Positions 6,485 to 19,822 are shown, counted from the first letter of the stretch. The stretch: 29,536 nt of DNA from a virus (IMGVR_UViG_3300029448_000277:1-29536), one strand, 5' to 3'. A program made the numbers and translations. Notes: a model not told the origin generated them from the sequence alone.

Positions 6485-7114
6485 ATGGAAGTAGTAAGTT
6501 TTACAGAAGCACAATTAAGATTTTCACAAACATCAAAAAAAGTTGGTTTTATAGCAAAACAATTAATAGGCGACCAACAAATAGTAAATGGTGGAGACTT
6601 TACTAATGCTAGTTCTTGGGCAAGTACTGGAGATATTATAATATTAGATGGTAGGCTAAATGGCTTTGGAGATGGAAATATAGAGCAATCAGAAACTCCA
6701 GTAGTAGGAAAACCATATAGAATAGAAATAGACAATTTAGTAAATACGTCAGGTGGTATTAAAGTTTCAATAGGTGGGGTTGAAACACCTTTAATGACAG
6801 AAAGTAACAAAACTTATGTTTTTCATGTTACTCCAATTAATACTGGTAATACTAAAGTAATAGGGGTAGGTTGGAATGGTACTTGCGACAATTTGAAAAT
6901 ATCAGCAGGTGAGCAGTCTGATTCATTAGATATGATAGACCCTAACCCAAAAGCAATTTGGGTCGCATCTGGTGGAACAATAAGGCTTTTAACTATGAGT
7001 GGTACAACTTTTCAAGTAACAAGTGTTCCATCAGACCAATATATAGATTGGATTAGAATTAAAAGGTTGTATAAATCAGACACAAGTATGACAAGTATTA
7101 TAGGATTATATTAA
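6485..7114 (+). CDS. Head spike-base-like protein with inserted carbohydrate-binding-like domain
   Basis: 209 residues. Its N-terminus (FTEAQLRFSQTSKKVG) and C-terminal 65 residues (NPKAIWVASGGTIRLLTM ... YIDWIRIKRLYKS ... GLY) match the next gene almost end to end. That C-terminal pattern resembles the small spike-base protein of gene transfer agents and siphophages (RCAP_rcc01079 family). Between them, residues about 27-140 form a beta-sandwich like CBM4/9 modules: it opens with QIVNGGDFTNASSWAS, followed by strands and ends with CDNLKIS. I infer a head spike or fibre that binds surface sugars. No enzyme motif is visible. It is 4 bases after the portal stop and is co-transcribed with its paralogue. 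Confidence 0.6.
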   Translation: MEVVSFTEAQLRFSQTSKKVGFIAKQLIGDQQIVNGGDFTNASSWASTGDIIILDGRLNGFGDGNIEQSETPVVGKPYRIEIDNLVNTSGGIKVSIGGVETPLMTESNKTYVFHVTPINTGNTKVIGVGWNGTCDNLKISAGEQSDSLDMIDPNPKAIWVASGGTIRLLTMSGTTFQVTSVPSDQYIDWIRIKRLYKSDTSMTSIIGLY

Positions 7115-7123
7115 ATAAACAAA

Positions 7124-7414
7124 ATGGCACAACTTACAGAAGACCAATTAAGATGGTCGCAAACAACAGAAGAATTAGGGAATGTAATAAAATCTTTAGA
7201 CGCAGAATTTAGCGATACAGTTGATTTATTAGATGAAAATCCAAAAGCAATTTGGGTAAAAAGTTCTGGTACATTAAAGGTTGATACAGTTGGTGGTACA
7301 ACGATTGAAATAGAAGGCATAAATAATGATACAAAAATTGACTGGATTAGAATAAAAAGAATTTATAGTTCAACTACTGGTTCAGCAGTTAGTGGTGTTT
7401 ATGGAATATATTAA
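7124..7414 (+). CDS. Head spike-base-like protein (short paralogue)
   Basis: 96 residues: LTEDQLRWSQTTEELG at the N-terminus, then NPKAIWVKSSGTLKVDTV, a GTTIEIEGI strand and KIDWIRIKRIYSS with a final GVYGIY. It lacks the inserted module of its upstream neighbour, so the pair reads as tandem duplication followed by domain insertion in one copy (or loss in the other). DNA identity is visible too, for example CCAAAAGCAATTTGGGT in both. The pattern of a Val/Thr beta repeat ending in an Ile-Arg-Ile-Lys-Arg strand resembles spike-base proteins attached to capsids. It would presumably anchor the spike or occupy a different site on the head. Confidence 0.6.
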   Translation: MAQLTEDQLRWSQTTEELGNVIKSLDAEFSDTVDLLDENPKAIWVKSSGTLKVDTVGGTTIEIEGINNDTKIDWIRIKRIYSSTTGSAVSGVYGIY

Positions 7415-14801: not shown

Positions 14802-15309
14802 TGTAGTTGAAATTTTATATAAAGATTATGATAAACTTGTACGCTTTGCAGTATCGTTATTAAAGAATAAAAGTTTAGCAGAAGATGTAGTGCAGGATGT
14901 TTTTTTGCAATTAATATCAAGTAATTCAAATCATTTAGTTTGGATATATGGAAATGGAAAAGGATTAAGTTATTTGAATAAAATTATAGCAGTAAGGTGT
15001 TTATCAAAAAAATCAAAGTTTTATAAAGAACAAATATTATATCAAAAAAATAAATTACCTACTAGCGAAAGTGAGTTAGAGTATTTATATAATAAAACAA
15101 ATTTAGAACAAACAATAGTTGATAAAAAACTTTTAAAAAAAATACATTTAATTGTAAATACTTTTGACGAATACGAAAAAAATTTATTCTTATTATATTA
15201 TGAAAGTGAAATGACTTACAAAGAATTATCAGAAGAAATAGGAATACCTAAAATATCTATTTATAATACTGTTAGAAAGGTTACAAAAAAAATTAAAGAA
15301 TTAATATGA
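14788..15309 (+). CDS. ECF-type RNA polymerase sigma factor
   Basis: 173 residues with the two-domain layout of ECF sigma factors. Region 2 includes LYKDYDKLVRFAVSLLKN and AEDVVQDVFLQL (31-42), the core-polymerase contact with its typical Ala-Glu-Asp-(x)2-Gln-Asp-x-Phe. Region 4 (about 125-173) includes EYEKNLFLLYYESEMTYKELSEEIGIPK, where MTYKELSEEIGIPKISIYNTVRKV forms the helix-turn-helix that reads the -35-type element. No anti-sigma gene is beside it. A phage-encoded sigma factor at the end of the early block suggests that it switches host polymerase to the late genes, for example at the shared TTTGTAT elements. Its start overlaps the previous stop and its end overlaps the next gene by 4 bases. 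Confidence 0.85.
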   Translation: MKKYSVVEILYKDYDKLVRFAVSLLKNKSLAEDVVQDVFLQLISSNSNHLVWIYGNGKGLSYLNKIIAVRCLSKKSKFYKEQILYQKNKLPTSESELEYLYNKTNLEQTIVDKKLLKKIHLIVNTFDEYEKNLFLLYYESEMTYKELSEEIGIPKISIYNTVRKVTKKIKELI

Positions 15310-15707
15310 TATTTTCATCTACTACATTAGCAAGTGATAGAATTGCTATTTGTGAATCATGTAAACATTTTAGAAAAACAACTAGGACTTGTGGCACACC
15401 AGTAAAGGGAAACAAGATTGGTAAGAAAAGATTATGTGGTTGTTTTATGGATATTAAGACAACACTAAAATTTGCTAGTTGTCCAATGAATAAATGGGAT
15501 GGATTGCAAATAACACACAAAGAATATTTAGAGGTAAAAGAATTATTAGATTCTACTAAAACCAGTATAACAAGCATTCAGCAACAACAATTAAGATTTT
15601 ACGGAGAAAAGTATTTAGGTATTAAAATACAAAGTAGCAGTTGTGCGCCTTGTGTAAAAAATAATTTAAACAGATTACAACAAATAATTAATGAATATGA
15701 AAAATGA
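15306..15707 (+). CDS. Cysteine-rich zinc-binding protein, unknown role
   Basis: 133 residues. The N-terminal 65 residues carry a zinc-ribbon-like pattern: ICESCKHF (15-22), then TCGTP, RLCGCFMDIK and ASCPMNKWDG. I know this arrangement (two CxxC-like knuckles followed by CGCxMxIK and CPxxKW) from phage and host proteins of unknown role. The C-terminal half is helical with a second SCAPCVKN pair near residues 113-120. It starts in the sigma stop codon (ATGA), so it may work with the sigma factor, for instance as an anti-sigma or co-regulator, but this is only from position. Confidence 0.6.
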   Translation: MIFSSTTLASDRIAICESCKHFRKTTRTCGTPVKGNKIGKKRLCGCFMDIKTTLKFASCPMNKWDGLQITHKEYLEVKELLDSTKTSITSIQQQQLRFYGEKYLGIKIQSSSCAPCVKNNLNRLQQIINEYEK

Positions 15708-16401
15708 AAAAAAATATACTGAAGAAGATTTAAAAGAAAAACTAGTTAAAATAGTAGAATATCCAAACGGCACTTACGAAATACATACTGAAAAACTAAT
15801 ACTTAGAGATTCACCAAAAGTAAATAAATCTAATCCTAGAGTAATTAAAGATGCTGATTTTAAAAAGTTAGTTAAATCAATAAAGGAGTTCCCAGAAATG
15901 CTAGAGTTAAGACCTATTGTGGTTGATGAAGATGGAATAATTTTAGGTGGTAACATGAGGTATCAAGCCTGCATAGAAGCAGGAATAAAAGAAAAAGATA
16001 TACCAAAACAAGTTGCAAAGGGGTTTACGGATGCGCAAAAGAAAGAGTTTATAATAAAAGACAATGCTAGTTCTGGAGAATGGGATTGGGATATTCTTGC
16101 AAACGAGTGGGACACAAAAGAATTAAACGAATGGGGTGTACAGGTTTGGCAAAATATGGATGATATTGTTGATTCAGTAAATAAAGGTGATGAATTTTCT
16201 GAATGGGTAGGTATGCCTGAATTTGAATCAAAGGAAGAACCATTTAAGATTGTTGTTAGTTTTTTAAATGAAAAAGATAGAGATGCTTTTGTAAATGAAA
16301 AAGATATGCAAGTTTCTTTAGCAAAAGAGGGTTCAAGAACTTGGAGTACAACTTATCCATTTAAAGAAAGAGAGGACATAAAATCATTACGATATGAATA
16401 A
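15691..16401 (+). CDS. ParB/Srx-fold N-terminal domain protein
   Basis: 236 residues. Residues about 40-115 form a ParB-like nuclease/NTP-binding domain: NPRVIKDADFKKLVKSIKEF, RPIVVDEDGIILGGNMRYQA with the typical GGNMRY box at 86-91, and IPKQVAKGFTDAQKKEFIIKDN. In phages this domain is often paired with DNA methylase or modification genes and not with partition genes. A C-terminal part (DWDILANEWDTKELNEWGVQVW; then FKIVVSFLNEKDRDAFV) resembles the tail of such methylase-associated proteins. No ParA is present. It stands directly before the glycosyltransferase module, which supports a link to DNA modification. It starts 17 bases inside the previous gene. Confidence 0.75.
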   Translation: MNMKNEKKYTEEDLKEKLVKIVEYPNGTYEIHTEKLILRDSPKVNKSNPRVIKDADFKKLVKSIKEFPEMLELRPIVVDEDGIILGGNMRYQACIEAGIKEKDIPKQVAKGFTDAQKKEFIIKDNASSGEWDWDILANEWDTKELNEWGVQVWQNMDDIVDSVNKGDEFSEWVGMPEFESKEEPFKIVVSFLNEKDRDAFVNEKDMQVSLAKEGSRTWSTTYPFKEREDIKSLRYE

Positions 16402-16456
16402 AATACCAAAACGATTTATTAGAATTTGGTTAGGCAAAAAACCAATGCCAATATAA
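16394..16456 (+). pseudogene. 20-codon relic of a sugar-binding (GT32-like) glycosyltransferase
   Basis: An ATG at 16394, overlapping the ParB-like stop by 8 bases, opens a frame of only 20 residues: IPKRFIRIWLGKKPMP follows the first two residues. This matches the very start of glycosyltransferases with a DXD sugar-binding region (typical opening Ile-Pro-Lys-x-Ile-His-x-Ile-Trp-x-Gly-x-Lys-Pro-Met-Pro). The stop follows at once, and its last base is the first base of the next ATG (TAATG). It looks like the remnant of a full gene removed by deletion, or a leader kept for translational coupling. The decay call depends on recognising this short pattern. Confidence 0.55.
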
Positions 16457-17337
16457 TGAAGACGCATTATCCAATATATATAGTTTCAAAAGGTAGGCAC
16501 GAAAATCCTATGACTGCAAATATGTTTAAGCAAGAAAATTTGGATTTTAAAATAGTAGTTGAGCCACAAGAATATGATTTGTATTGCGAATCAGTTGGTA
16601 AGGAATATGTATTGGAATTGCCATTTGCCAATTTAGGTGTTGGTTCATTTCCTGCAAGAAACTTTTGTTGGGAAGATAGTATTAAGAATGGCTTTGATAG
16701 GCATTGGGTGTTTGATGATAATATATCTAAAATACGCAGAATAAATAAAGGCAGAAAAATATCTTGTAATGCCAAAAAAGCAATAGAAACATTAGAAGAA
16801 TTTACAGACAGATATAGTAATGTTGGAATAACTGCATTTAATTATACCAATTTTGTAGTCGCAGGTAGTTCAGACAAAAAACCATTTTATATAAATACGC
16901 ATTGTTATAGTGCTATGCTTATGAAAAATGATATGGATTGTAGATGGCGAATGAAGTACAATGAGGATGTGGACTTATGCTTACAAGTATTGAATAAAAG
17001 ATTATGTACTCTAAATTTTAATGCGTTCACAGTAGATAAAACAAGTACAACGGCTAAGATGAAAGGTGGAAATCAAACAGAATTGTATAAGGGTAATGCC
17101 TATGAAATGAAAGTTCTTAAAGCACGAAGCCTTGAAAAAATATGGCCTAAGTATTGTTCGACTATTATAAGATTTAAAAGACCACATCATTGGGTGAATT
17201 GGGCAAAGTTTAAACACGGATTGATACACAGAAAGAATATTGACTTTAATAAACTAAAAACCAATAAATTTAAACTAAAGCAAATTGATAAAATAAAAAG
17301 TAAGTCGTTAAAAAAATTCTTTAAAGAAACAAAATGA
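16456..17337 (+). CDS. Glycosyltransferase, TET-associated (TAGT-like) family
   Basis: 293 residues from the ATG at 16456; an in-frame TTG 30 bases upstream lies in the relic. The pattern is that of the phage GT-A-fold enzymes described as GREB/TET-associated glycosyltransferases: YIVSKGRHENPMT (8-20), FKIVVEPQEYDLY, PFANLGVGSFPARNFCWEDS (56-75), HWVFDDNI (83-90; Asp-Asp metal/sugar-nucleotide site), a hydrophobic core, and MKYNEDVDLCLQVL (167-179; catalytic-side acid). Family members attach sugars to modified DNA bases. No TET/JBP oxygenase, deoxycytidylate hydroxymethylase or similar base-making gene is visible, so the acceptor here is unknown; a virion protein or a host-made base is possible. 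It overlaps the epimerase by 4 bases. Confidence 0.7.
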   Translation: MKTHYPIYIVSKGRHENPMTANMFKQENLDFKIVVEPQEYDLYCESVGKEYVLELPFANLGVGSFPARNFCWEDSIKNGFDRHWVFDDNISKIRRINKGRKISCNAKKAIETLEEFTDRYSNVGITAFNYTNFVVAGSSDKKPFYINTHCYSAMLMKNDMDCRWRMKYNEDVDLCLQVLNKRLCTLNFNAFTVDKTSTTAKMKGGNQTELYKGNAYEMKVLKARSLEKIWPKYCSTIIRFKRPHHWVNWAKFKHGLIHRKNIDFNKLKTNKFKLKQIDKIKSKSLKKFFKETK

Positions 17338-18185
17338 AAGTATTAGTTACAGGTGGTGCAGGTTTTGTTGGTTCAAATCTAATAAAGCATTTAAAAGAAA
17401 ATACAGATTACCAAATAACATCTATTGATAATTATTTTACTGGTGATGAAAAAAATCATATTGAGGGTATAAAGTATTTTATAGGAAATGCAGGAGATAG
17501 GATTCAAAATATTGAAAAACAAGATATAGTATTTCATTTTGCAGAGTATTCAAGAGTTGTGCCATCGTTTAAGGATATTGATTATTTAACAAAAACAAAT
17601 TTATATGGTACTGCAAGGGTAATAGAACAATGTAAACAATGGGATGCCAAACTTATATATTCTGCATCAAGTTCTAAATTTGGTGGTAATGAAAACCTTA
17701 GTCCTTATTCTTGGGTAAAAGCCAAAATGGTGGAGATGATAAAAAACTATGGTGTATGGTACGGACTAATATACGAGATTTGCTATTTCTATAATGTGTA
17801 CGGAAAGAACCAAATTATGAAAGGGGATTATGCAACTGTGATAGGAATCTTTGAAAGGTTATATAAAGAAAACAAACCATTAACAATATATGGAGATGGT
17901 ATGCAAACAAGGCAATTTACTCACATTAATGATTTGGTAAATGGTATTTCCAAAGTTATAGATATGGACTATAACGAGGAATGGTATTTAAGTTCTGAAC
18001 AAGAACATACAATAAATGAAATAGCAGATATGTTTATGCACCCTAAAAAATACATAAAAGCCAAAAAAGGTGAAAGAATAACGGCAGTAATACCAAAGAA
18101 TAATACTAAAGAATTATTGGATTGGAAAATAGAATATAAAATAAGAGATTGGATTGAAAACATAATACACAATGAACAAAACTGA
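17334..18185 (+). CDS. NAD-dependent nucleotide-sugar epimerase/dehydratase
   Basis: 283 residues, extended short-chain dehydrogenase type. The Rossmann motif GGAGFVGSNL is at 7-16; VFHFAEYSRV replaces the usual xHLAA motif; the catalytic Ser region is SASSSKFGG (110-118); and the Tyr-x-x-x-Lys motif is YSWVK (Tyr125, Lys129). Further typical segments are YFYNVYGKNQ, LTIYGDGMQTRQFTHINDLVNGI and a C-terminal substrate part. These enzymes convert UDP- or GDP-sugars, for example UDP-glucose to UDP-galactose. The Lys-Phe in place of Val-Tyr after the serine block is unusual, but the triad is intact. It overlaps the glycosyltransferase (ATGA) and very likely makes its donor sugar. It could also serve host-surface polysaccharides. 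Confidence 0.85.
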   Translation: MKVLVTGGAGFVGSNLIKHLKENTDYQITSIDNYFTGDEKNHIEGIKYFIGNAGDRIQNIEKQDIVFHFAEYSRVVPSFKDIDYLTKTNLYGTARVIEQCKQWDAKLIYSASSSKFGGNENLSPYSWVKAKMVEMIKNYGVWYGLIYEICYFYNVYGKNQIMKGDYATVIGIFERLYKENKPLTIYGDGMQTRQFTHINDLVNGISKVIDMDYNEEWYLSSEQEHTINEIADMFMHPKKYIKAKKGERITAVIPKNNTKELLDWKIEYKIRDWIENIIHNEQN

Positions 18186-18534
18186 ACAACATAAAAAAGC
18201 AATTCTTGAAGCACTTGAAAAATCTCTAGGTATTGTTACAACGGCTTGCAAGAAAGTAGGGATAGGTAGAACACAATATTATAATTGGCTAAAAGAAGAT
18301 GTAGAATTTGCAGAAAGAGTTAAAGATATATCTAATATAGCATTAGACTTTGCAGAAAGTAAGTTACATGAACAAATAGCAGATAAAAATACATCAGCAA
18401 CTATATTTTTCTTAAAGACTAAGGGTAAAGGTAGGGGTTATATAGAAAGAAGTGAGGTTGATGTTTCCACAGATGATAGAATAAAAATAGAAATTACGCC
18501 TTTTGAAGAAACAGAGGATAACATTATTTCCTAA
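18172..18534 (+). CDS. terS: Terminase small subunit
   Basis: 120 residues immediately before the large subunit (32-base overlap). The N-terminal half is a helix-turn-helix typical of small terminases: ILEALEKSLGIVTTACKKVGIGRTQYYNWLKEDVEFAERVKDI, followed by an oligomerisation helix (DFAESKLHEQIADKNTSATIFFLKTKGKGRGY) and an acidic C-terminus (ITPFEETEDN). It would recognise the packaging start on phage DNA and load the motor. It starts 14 bases inside the epimerase gene, which ties the sugar genes to the packaging unit. Confidence 0.85.
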   Translation: MNKTEQHKKAILEALEKSLGIVTTACKKVGIGRTQYYNWLKEDVEFAERVKDISNIALDFAESKLHEQIADKNTSATIFFLKTKGKGRGYIERSEVDVSTDDRIKIEITPFEETEDNIIS

Positions 18535-19822
18535 ACAGATAGAGTGTTTTAAATATTTAGAAGATAATCATACATCAGAAGTTTTATTTGGTGGTGGTGC
18601 AGGAGGCTCTAAAACATTTACTGGTTGTTTGTGGCAAATTACAAGGAGATTAAAATACCCAAACACAAGGAGTGTAATAGGTAGGTCAAAGTTAAAAAAC
18701 CTTAAAAGCACAACATTAAATACATTTTGGGAAGTAGCAATAAATTATTGTGGTTTAAAACCAAACAGAGATTTTCAATATAATGCTAATGGTTTTAAAA
18801 TTAGTTTCTATAATGGTTCTGAAATTTATTTAAAAGACTTATTTCTATTTCCATCAGACCCAGAATTTACAAGTTTAGGTGGTTTAGAAATAACAGATTG
18901 CTTTGTAGATGAATGTGCAGAAGTAACAGAAAAAGCAGTAAACATTTTAAATTCTAGGATAAGATATAAATTGGATGAGTTTAATCTAATACCTAAAACA
19001 CTACTTACTTGTAATCCATCTAAAGGGTGGTTATATACACAATTCTATAAACCTGCCTTAACAAATGATTTACCAGAACATAAAAAGTTTATTAAATCTT
19101 TAGTTACAGATAACAAAGCAATATCTAAACACTACATTACACAACTAGGAAAACTAGATAAAATAAGTAAAGAAAGATTATTGTTTGGAAATTGGGAATA
19201 TAATAGTGATGATGCTTTACTATTTGATTATGATGCTTTGCTAGATATATTTACTAATGAATATGTAGAAGAAGGAATAAAAGTAATTACCTGCGATGTA
19301 GCGAGGTTTGGAGATGATAAGACAATTATATGTCAATGGAATGGCTTAATATTAGAAAAAATAGTTAAGCATGACAAAAGTAGTGTTTTACAAATAGTTC
19401 AAGATATTAAAGAAATGTGCATAAAACATAGCATACCAAATAGTAAAATAGTTATAGACCAAGATGGTGTAGGCGGGGGAGTTGTAGATTATCTTTCTGG
19501 GAGTATAGGTTTTGTAAACGGAGGAAAAGCACTTAAAGGAGATAACTATCAAAACTTAAAAACACAATGTTTTTATAAATTAGCAGAATTAGTAAATACT
19601 GGTAAAATATATATATTAGATAATCAATATAAAGATTCTATAATATCAGAACTTGAAATAGTAAAAAGAGATAAAGTTGACAAGGATAGTCAAAAACTAG
19701 CAATAGAAGGAAAAGAAATACAAAAACAAAAACTAGGTCATTCTCCAGACTTTGCTGATGCAATTATGATGAGAATGTGGTTTGAGTGTAAAGGCAACTA
19801 TGGGGACTATGCAGTAATTTAA
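18503..19822 (+). CDS. terL: Terminase large subunit (packaging ATPase and nuclease)
   Basis: 439 residues from a TTG at 18503; no ATG lies near the conserved N-terminus (LFPKQIECFKYLED). The ATPase has Walker A GGGAGGSKT (30-38), Walker B ITDCFVDECAE with Asp136 and Glu137, and coupling motif LLTCNPS (167-173). The RNase H-type nuclease has Asp265 in ITCDVARFGDDKT, Asp319 in IVIDQDGVGGG and Asp416/Asp419 in SPDFADAIM, so both activities should be intact. The enzyme drives DNA into the prohead through the portal and cuts it. Length is typical. The 35-base gap after it contains a promoter-like box, and tail genes follow where portal and head genes would normally be. Confidence 0.93.
   Translation: MKKQRITLFPKQIECFKYLEDNHTSEVLFGGGAGGSKTFTGCLWQITRRLKYPNTRSVIGRSKLKNLKSTTLNTFWEVAINYCGLKPNRDFQYNANGFKISFYNGSEIYLKDLFLFPSDPEFTSLGGLEITDCFVDECAEVTEKAVNILNSRIRYKLDEFNLIPKTLLTCNPSKGWLYTQFYKPALTNDLPEHKKFIKSLVTDNKAISKHYITQLGKLDKISKERLLFGNWEYNSDDALLFDYDALLDIFTNEYVEEGIKVITCDVARFGDDKTIICQWNGLILEKIVKHDKSSVLQIVQDIKEMCIKHSIPNSKIVIDQDGVGGGVVDYLSGSIGFVNGGKALKGDNYQNLKTQCFYKLAELVNTGKIYILDNQYKDSIISELEIVKRDKVDKDSQKLAIEGKEIQKQKLGHSPDFADAIMMRMWFECKGNYGDYAVI

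Follow-up and report, generated by a model that had tools for sequence, protein, structure and literature searches.

A ParB-like protein and a TAGT-family glycosyltransferase as a candidate DNA-glycosylation unit in an exchangeable slot of a small marine phage genome

To our knowledge, phage DNA glycosylation as currently described starts with a hydroxylated base that the phage itself makes. The TET-associated glycosyltransferases (TAGTs), reportedly defined by Iyer et al. in 2013, take their name from such a context, next to TET/JBP or hydroxymethyl-base enzymes. The marine phage genome studied here (~29.4 kb) carries a TAGT-family gene beside its terminase genes and no recognizable gene for such a base, which raises the question of what this enzyme glycosylates. 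The window, meaning the whole stretch of 29,536 nucleotides that was analyzed, begins and ends with the same 99 bases, and the tape-measure gene is continuous across the end-to-end junction. The genome is a complete circular molecule and, because the contig closes on itself, the hypothesis of a fragment with an acceptor gene beyond its end is ruled out. The host is likely flavobacterial, since, among phage records, Flavobacterium phage 11b and Cellulophaga phi10:1 have the closest large terminase subunits (48%), and the portal protein finds its top matches in Nonlabens phages P12024S/L. We propose, with a probability of roughly 0.6, that the locus encodes a self-contained, ParB-guided and TAGT-based unit for DNA glycosylation, placed in a slot that phages use for DNA-modification genes. 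The gene order is small Cys-rich gene, ParB, TAGT, epimerase, terS and terL, with the following features in window coordinates:

15306..15707, + strand: small Cys-rich protein upstream (weak DUF6171)
15691..16401, + strand: ParB-like protein, 236 aa (PHROGs, profile versus PDB, structure search)
16189..16398, + strand: TAGT-partner domain, residues 167-236 of the ParB-like protein (profile searches)
16394..16456, + strand: scar, MNKIPKRFIRIWLGKKPMPI* (alignment to the Gly_transf_sug glycosyltransferase of relatives)
16456..17337, + strand: TAGT-family glycosyltransferase (PF20691), 293 aa from ATG (Pfam, predicted structure)
17334..18185, + strand: NAD-dependent nucleotide-sugar epimerase/dehydratase-family protein, 283 aa (PF01370)
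18172..18534, + strand: terminase small subunit (terS), 3' border of the exchangeable slot (terminase family match)
18503..19822, + strand: terminase large subunit (terL), query for finding close relatives (terminase family match)

An earlier, sequence-only reading of this DNA had described three overlapping genes in one polycistron, forming a compact cassette coupled to terS. All three genes are present, and each of the motifs it quoted (GGNMRY, SKGR, PARNF, HWVFDDNI, NEDVD and YSWVK) is found in the translations. The overlaps hold for TAGT and epimerase (4 nt) and for epimerase and terS (14 nt), so that the cassette does run into terS; ParB and TAGT, by contrast, are separated by a 20-codon frame. 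The small Cys-rich gene is common to phages with and without a TAGT and, therefore, belongs to the gene skeleton rather than to the cassette. A DNA-level search of the island against phage records returned no match.

The glycosyltransferase matches TAGT family PF20691 along the entire profile (positions 1-205 of 205; E = 1.1e-41; 143.5 bits, where the cut-off is 27.5). Its predicted structure (pLDDT 93) adopts a GT-A fold with GalNAc-T2, cellulose synthase and SpsA as neighbors (Z of 12.5-14.5), and the residues of the DDN metal motif (D87-D88) and the NED base motif (D171) are intact here and invariant in 64 TAGT sequences, in agreement with the earlier assignment as TAGT-like. The fold itself gives no acceptor, because its neighbors include both protein and polysaccharide transferases. 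The phage's TAGT is basic (pI 9.6), as are TAGTs in general (median pI 9.42, n = 151, versus 7.68 for 272 similar-sized ORFs of the same loci), which would be expected of an enzyme meeting DNA and weakly suggests such a role.

The only biochemically studied relative is the T6 beta-glucosyl-HMC-alpha-glucosyltransferase, a TAGT that, according to the accessible text of PMC13216743, adds a second glucose to glucosyl-hmC and is predicted to have a GT-A fold. The two enzymes share a Pfam family, the fold, the DDN and NED motifs and a phage DNA-modification setting. However, the T6 gene adjoins a thymidylate-synthase-type (hydroxymethylase) gene, which the phage studied here lacks, and sequence similarity between the two is very low, with a ParB-borne partner domain in the studied phage. 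T6-type function by homology was rejected, as the T6 enzyme is too distant (19.8 bits over 107 residues against the TAGT profile, on a very long branch; long branches make the tree placement of the T6, P12024L, L175 and L178 TAGTs unreliable). The studied enzyme is a TAGT by sequence family, outside the TET-associated context of the name and distinct from the T6 type.

For the ParB-like protein, a Pfam search with the single sequence did not detect the ParB family. PHROGs, a 53-sequence profile against the PDB (matches to ParB/Spo0J/Noc, best 1.1e-11) and a structure search concordantly identify a ParB/Srx fold spanning residues ~43-143, with GGNMR as box II and its arginine, R90, conserved in >90% of sequences, which places the protein in the ParB/Srx superfamily. 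We rejected a canonical ParB partition protein, because the C-terminus is a TAGT-partner domain and not the usual layout of central HTH and dimerization domain; among the ORFs scanned with Pfam and PHROGs, no partner ParA was named.

The last ~70 residues (167-236) constitute a previously undescribed domain with the pattern W-x-G-M-P-x-F ... W-x-x-x-x-P, which reads WVGMPEF ... WSTTYP in this phage. Searched alone against Pfam and PHROGs, the domain matched no significant family, with one sub-cut-off Pfam match at E = 0.017. Run against the 8,563 ORFs of the collected loci, its profile matched 93 ParB proteins, 22 TAGT proteins with the domain as an N-terminal fusion (those of Aeh1 and POP12 among them), a single protein that combines ParB, domain and TAGT, and nine others. 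One of these nine is a ParB cut by a contig end, and the other eight, which are small or fused in a different way, adjoin a TAGT. A TAGT lies directly downstream of 93 of the 94 distinct ParB-plus-domain proteins, mostly overlapping by a few bases, and the remaining one (L208) is itself a ParB-domain-TAGT fusion in a single ORF of 673 aa, a count that mixes loci from TAGT queries and ParB queries. Two less biased tests gave the same picture: a TAGT immediately follows the domain in 33/33 contigs of a viral scan seeded with the stand-alone domain, and in 50,697 phage records all matches (14 records) lie either inside the reading frame of a TAGT or immediately ahead of it. Throughout the loci and records searched, the domain was seen only next to a TAGT or fused with one, an obligate pairing.

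ParB itself is absent from the fused and stand-alone domain-TAGT forms; some larger phages have domain and TAGT without it. ParB is thus optional, and the partner domain is not. The motif is missing from ParB proteins that occupy the same position and serve a methylase, a TET cassette or nothing, and, in L175 and L178, from those that adjoin a divergent TAGT. Scanning cellular genome contigs for ParB proteins with the strict motif EW[VI]GMP[ED]F found no relative, and TAGT-seeded loci in such contigs carry diverged forms of the domain. The gene fusions, through the gene-fusion argument, and the constant pairing lead us to suggest that the ParB-domain protein and the TAGT act as one unit. The ParB-like protein, previously taken as a neighbor of a modification enzyme, is more precisely half of this putative unit, with a C-terminal domain specific to its TAGT partner.

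What this unit might modify is constrained by what the genome lacks. Searches of the complete genome for Tet_JBP (PF12851) and for thymidylate synthase/hydroxymethylase (PF00303) found nothing even at E = 10, which upholds the earlier statement that no TET/JBP, hydroxymethylase or thymidylate synthase-like gene is visible and leads us to reject a hidden TET or hydroxymethylase gene. Among the first 50 related viral records, Tet_JBP gave one sub-cut-off match, and PF00303 and a C5-methylase had two carriers each; 50 more related records had Tet_JBP in L185 only. PF00303 matched only in six large phages of the 47 records tested for it, and 43 further records, which included whole bacterial genomes with domain-TAGT loci, had Tet_JBP in P12024L and in one Winogradskyella bin. 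The Winogradskyella match is a bin-level one and may lie apart from the TAGT contig. The cultured Vibrio phages 1.076.O and 1.124.O, whose records are labeled as partial genomes, likewise encode domain and TAGT and no TET or thymidylate-synthase gene. Comparing 13 TAGT-positive with six TAGT-negative phages, most of them records of unproven completeness, left TAGT as the only family present in all of the former and none of the latter. An acceptor gene elsewhere in the genome was rejected, as no non-TAGT family has the required pattern. Because acceptor-making families are absent or rare in relatives, the acceptor should be a normal base, one that an unrecognized factor makes, or something other than DNA.

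The classical pathway is readily seen where it exists. The cultured Nonlabens phage P12024L, our positive control, has Tet_JBP, TAGT and methyltransferase genes in a row. It resembles the studied phage in being a flavobacterial phage with a TAGT and a distantly related portal protein, but its TAGT has a TET oxygenase and a methyltransferase beside it, is 27% identical and has no N-terminal extension for a partner domain. A further parallel is found in the accessible text of PMC13216743 (2026), where TAGTs without alpha-GT or beta-GT, as in the present case, are counted in 288 of 753 phage genomes and called potentially novel transferases; that text does not report the ParB/partner-domain pairing or an exchangeable slot.

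A tentative but serious possibility, which is a version of our proposal and compatible with it, is that an unrecognized phage enzyme or the host premakes the acceptor base in DNA, to which the TAGT then adds the sugar. The characterized TAGT chemistry of T6 uses a pre-existing sugar on hydroxymethylcytosine (accessible text of PMC13216743), and methylases lie in or beside the cassette of L153, L155 and L038. Nevertheless, no family other than TAGT is both universal in and restricted to the TAGT-positive phages, and domain-TAGT loci are spread over contigs assigned to Bacteroidota, Pseudomonadota, Actinomycetota, Bacillota and Planctomycetota, so that a shared host-made base is unlikely. We regard as doubtful the bolder idea of a minimal system in which the ParB-partner-domain protein and the TAGT put sugar on a DNA base that is unmodified, or that the ParB/partner protein itself has altered, with no hydroxymethyl precursor.

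That the acceptor is DNA at all is suggested by what replaces the cassette in close relatives. We collected these with terL, a query unbiased toward glycosyltransferases. Relatives with a terL 74-85% identical have the same gene skeleton and different content after ParB and before terS. ParB is fused to an N6_N4 methylase in L177, L179 and L180 (in L177, Pfam N6_N4_Mtase PF01555 at 1.7e-17 and ParB_N at 6.9e-7). The slot of L185 holds a P-loop protein and a Tet_JBP oxygenase without a TAGT (2.8e-8, 33.6 bits, just under the 34.9 cut-off, and 35 bits in another run), and that of L186 holds QueD, QueE, FolE, QueC, a DpdA-like protein and a ParB-like protein (7-deazaguanine gene scores of 4.8e-77 for QueC, 4.3e-64 for GTP cyclohydrolase I and 4.8e-28 for PTPS). 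Other TAGTs fill it in L175, L178 and L187 (scores 1.2e-16 and 4.2e-34), PAPS reductase with a second ParB and a GNAT-like protein in L172 and L173, and ABC-GNAT with GNAT in L174. ParB stands alone in L181 and L199, L182 has neither ParB nor cassette, and L153 and L155, from the ParB search, combine ParB, TAGT and a ParB::methylase fusion. Several of these occupants are established DNA-modification families; the PAPS-reductase and ABC-GNAT sets are putative, not proven, DNA modifiers. Because the slot holds established DNA-modification families in close relatives, the TAGT cassette probably acts on DNA too.

Coupling of a ParB fold to DNA-modifying enzymes has precedents. A 2025 survey of ParB folds describes methylase and DUF fusions (PMC12704722), and ParB occurs beside CmoX-type DNA modification (PMC12783734). 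The phage ParB-DNA-methylase fusions of these papers are of the kind that fills the same slot in close relatives, whereas the studied ParB bears the TAGT-partner domain instead. PMC12704722 nowhere uses the word glycosyltransferase, and neither the partner domain nor ParB-TAGT coupling turned up in our literature search, with an earlier mention in Iyer et al. 2013 being possible.

The slot also bears on a proposal in which a virion protein (capsid or tail) receives the sugar from the TAGT, ParB serves packaging and the position on the terS side is that of a late-gene cassette. The missing base-hydroxylating gene, the peptide GalNAc transferases and collagen galactosyltransferase among the GT-A neighbors, the adjoining packaging genes and the other glycosyltransferase-like genes downstream of terL in L028 and L049 would all fit. 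We nonetheless consider it unlikely: close relatives place DNA methylases, 7-deazaguanine and TET genes in the slot rather than protein modifiers, the partner domain is common to TAGTs of large T4-like phages, and a ParB fold together with a basic TAGT suggests a polyanion. The sequence-only reading had left DNA with a non-classical acceptor and a virion protein as its two alternatives; slot exchange and partner-domain pairing now favor the first and weaken the second, and its interpretation otherwise stands in the TAGT, the missing hydroxymethyl-base gene and the compact cassette.

The remaining genes concern the sugar. The epimerase (PF01370, 6.8e-33) has intact TGGAGFVGS and YSWVK (YxxxK) motifs, as in extended SDR NDP-sugar epimerases. 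In the PDB it matches UXS best (82 bits), with UDP-glucose 4-epimerase nearly as close. The stretch aligned to TSEVYG of UXS reads SSSK and lacks the catalytic Glu in this alignment; a UXS-type UDP-xylose synthase is not supported at that residue, which makes UDP-xylose synthesis less likely than a role resembling that of a 4-epimerase. The protein probably supplies the sugar nucleotide as an accessory. The 20-codon frame before the TAGT aligns with the N-terminal 19 residues of a Gly_transf_sug glycosyltransferase of 215-217 aa (score 90-95, with a rank-30 background of 34) that is intact in L014, L084 and L085; in L014, L112 and others, the genes run ParB, Gly_transf_sug transferase, TAGT, epimerase and terS. 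The 20-codon frame is the start of a deleted second glycosyltransferase and, because relatives keep that transferase, the genome has lost one sugar-adding step.

Some relatives add another glycosyltransferase to the cassette, and the 94 ParB-plus-domain proteins have nearby a UDP-glucose dehydrogenase (4/94), a second TAGT (12/94) or an epimerase (32/94). The last figure rejects an obligate trio: the three genes do not always travel together, although ParB-domain protein and TAGT do. As the accessory sugar genes differ among relatives, the glycan would vary while the ParB-domain protein and the TAGT stay. It is very improbable that the island alters host surface glycans (LPS or capsule) for superinfection block or receptor change, given that no flippase or polymerase was recognized in the cassette, the partner-domain pairing is obligate and the cassette swaps with DNA-modification cassettes, even though the epimerase, UDP-glucose dehydrogenase and extra glycosyltransferases of relatives resemble surface-polysaccharide genes.

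We infer from these observations a DNA acceptor, DNA targeting by ParB and protection as the benefit. Under our proposal of a DNA-glycosylation unit, the ParB-like protein would sit on DNA through its ParB/Srx fold, and its C-terminal partner domain would hold or activate the TAGT. A host nucleotide sugar, converted by the epimerase, may serve as the donor, and the TAGT, whose motifs are those of an inverting-type GT-A enzyme, would move the sugar onto phage DNA before packaging, where it could shield the DNA from host restriction or CRISPR.

A two-protein unit that recurs in many phages without a hydroxylated-base gene suggests either a new acceptor or new enzymology. The partner domain offers a sequence tag for finding such systems, the interval between ParB and terS is a place to seek further DNA-modification cassettes, and the fused form is encoded by small Vibrio phages in culture, which makes the system amenable to testing. 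Should an unmodified base prove to be the acceptor, its glycosylation would be an undescribed DNA chemistry with a wide distribution among uncultured small marine phages and prophage-like loci.

In a close relative of the window phage (L186; terL 76% identical to that of the window), a 7-deazaguanine gene set lies 5' of terS, where the window carries its PF20691-family glycosyltransferase (TAGT). The contents of this exchangeable region between ParB and terS in four relatives, and of two further loci, are as follows.

L186, 3655-7644: QueD, QueE, GTP cyclohydrolase I, QueC, a DpdA-like protein and a ParB-like protein
L185, 5829-7662: ParB, a small P-loop protein and a Tet_JBP-family oxygenase
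L174, 504-1974: an ABC-ATPase/GNAT fusion protein and a second GNAT
L172, 4561-7671: ParB, a GNAT-like protein, a PAPS-reductase/DUF3440-type protein and a second ParB
L203, 34-2723: two ParBs, a protein resembling DpdA (judged by eye) and TAGT
L305, 3399-4750: an annotated DNA modification methylase, a divergent TAGT-like gene, then terL

The L185 region lacks TAGT, although the oxygenase is present. On L203, a contig of an Ignavibacteriota bin, TAGT precedes terminase-like genes. Streptococcus phage Javan291 (L305), whose host group is far from Bacteroidota, shows the gene arrangement of the window; its annotated methylase is ParB-sized (197 codons).

Within the window, the ParB/TAGT gap (16394-16456) holds a 20-codon relic of the Gly_transf_sug glycosyltransferase found in some relatives. 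Elsewhere, neighbouring genes at 6485-7111 (in its C-terminal part only) and 7124-7411 both match tail-fibre PHROG 12296 and look like a duplication.

The L174 fusion was assigned to phrog_11143, with a weak match to Mom (E=0.075), and the L172 genes possibly represent an undescribed DNA modification.
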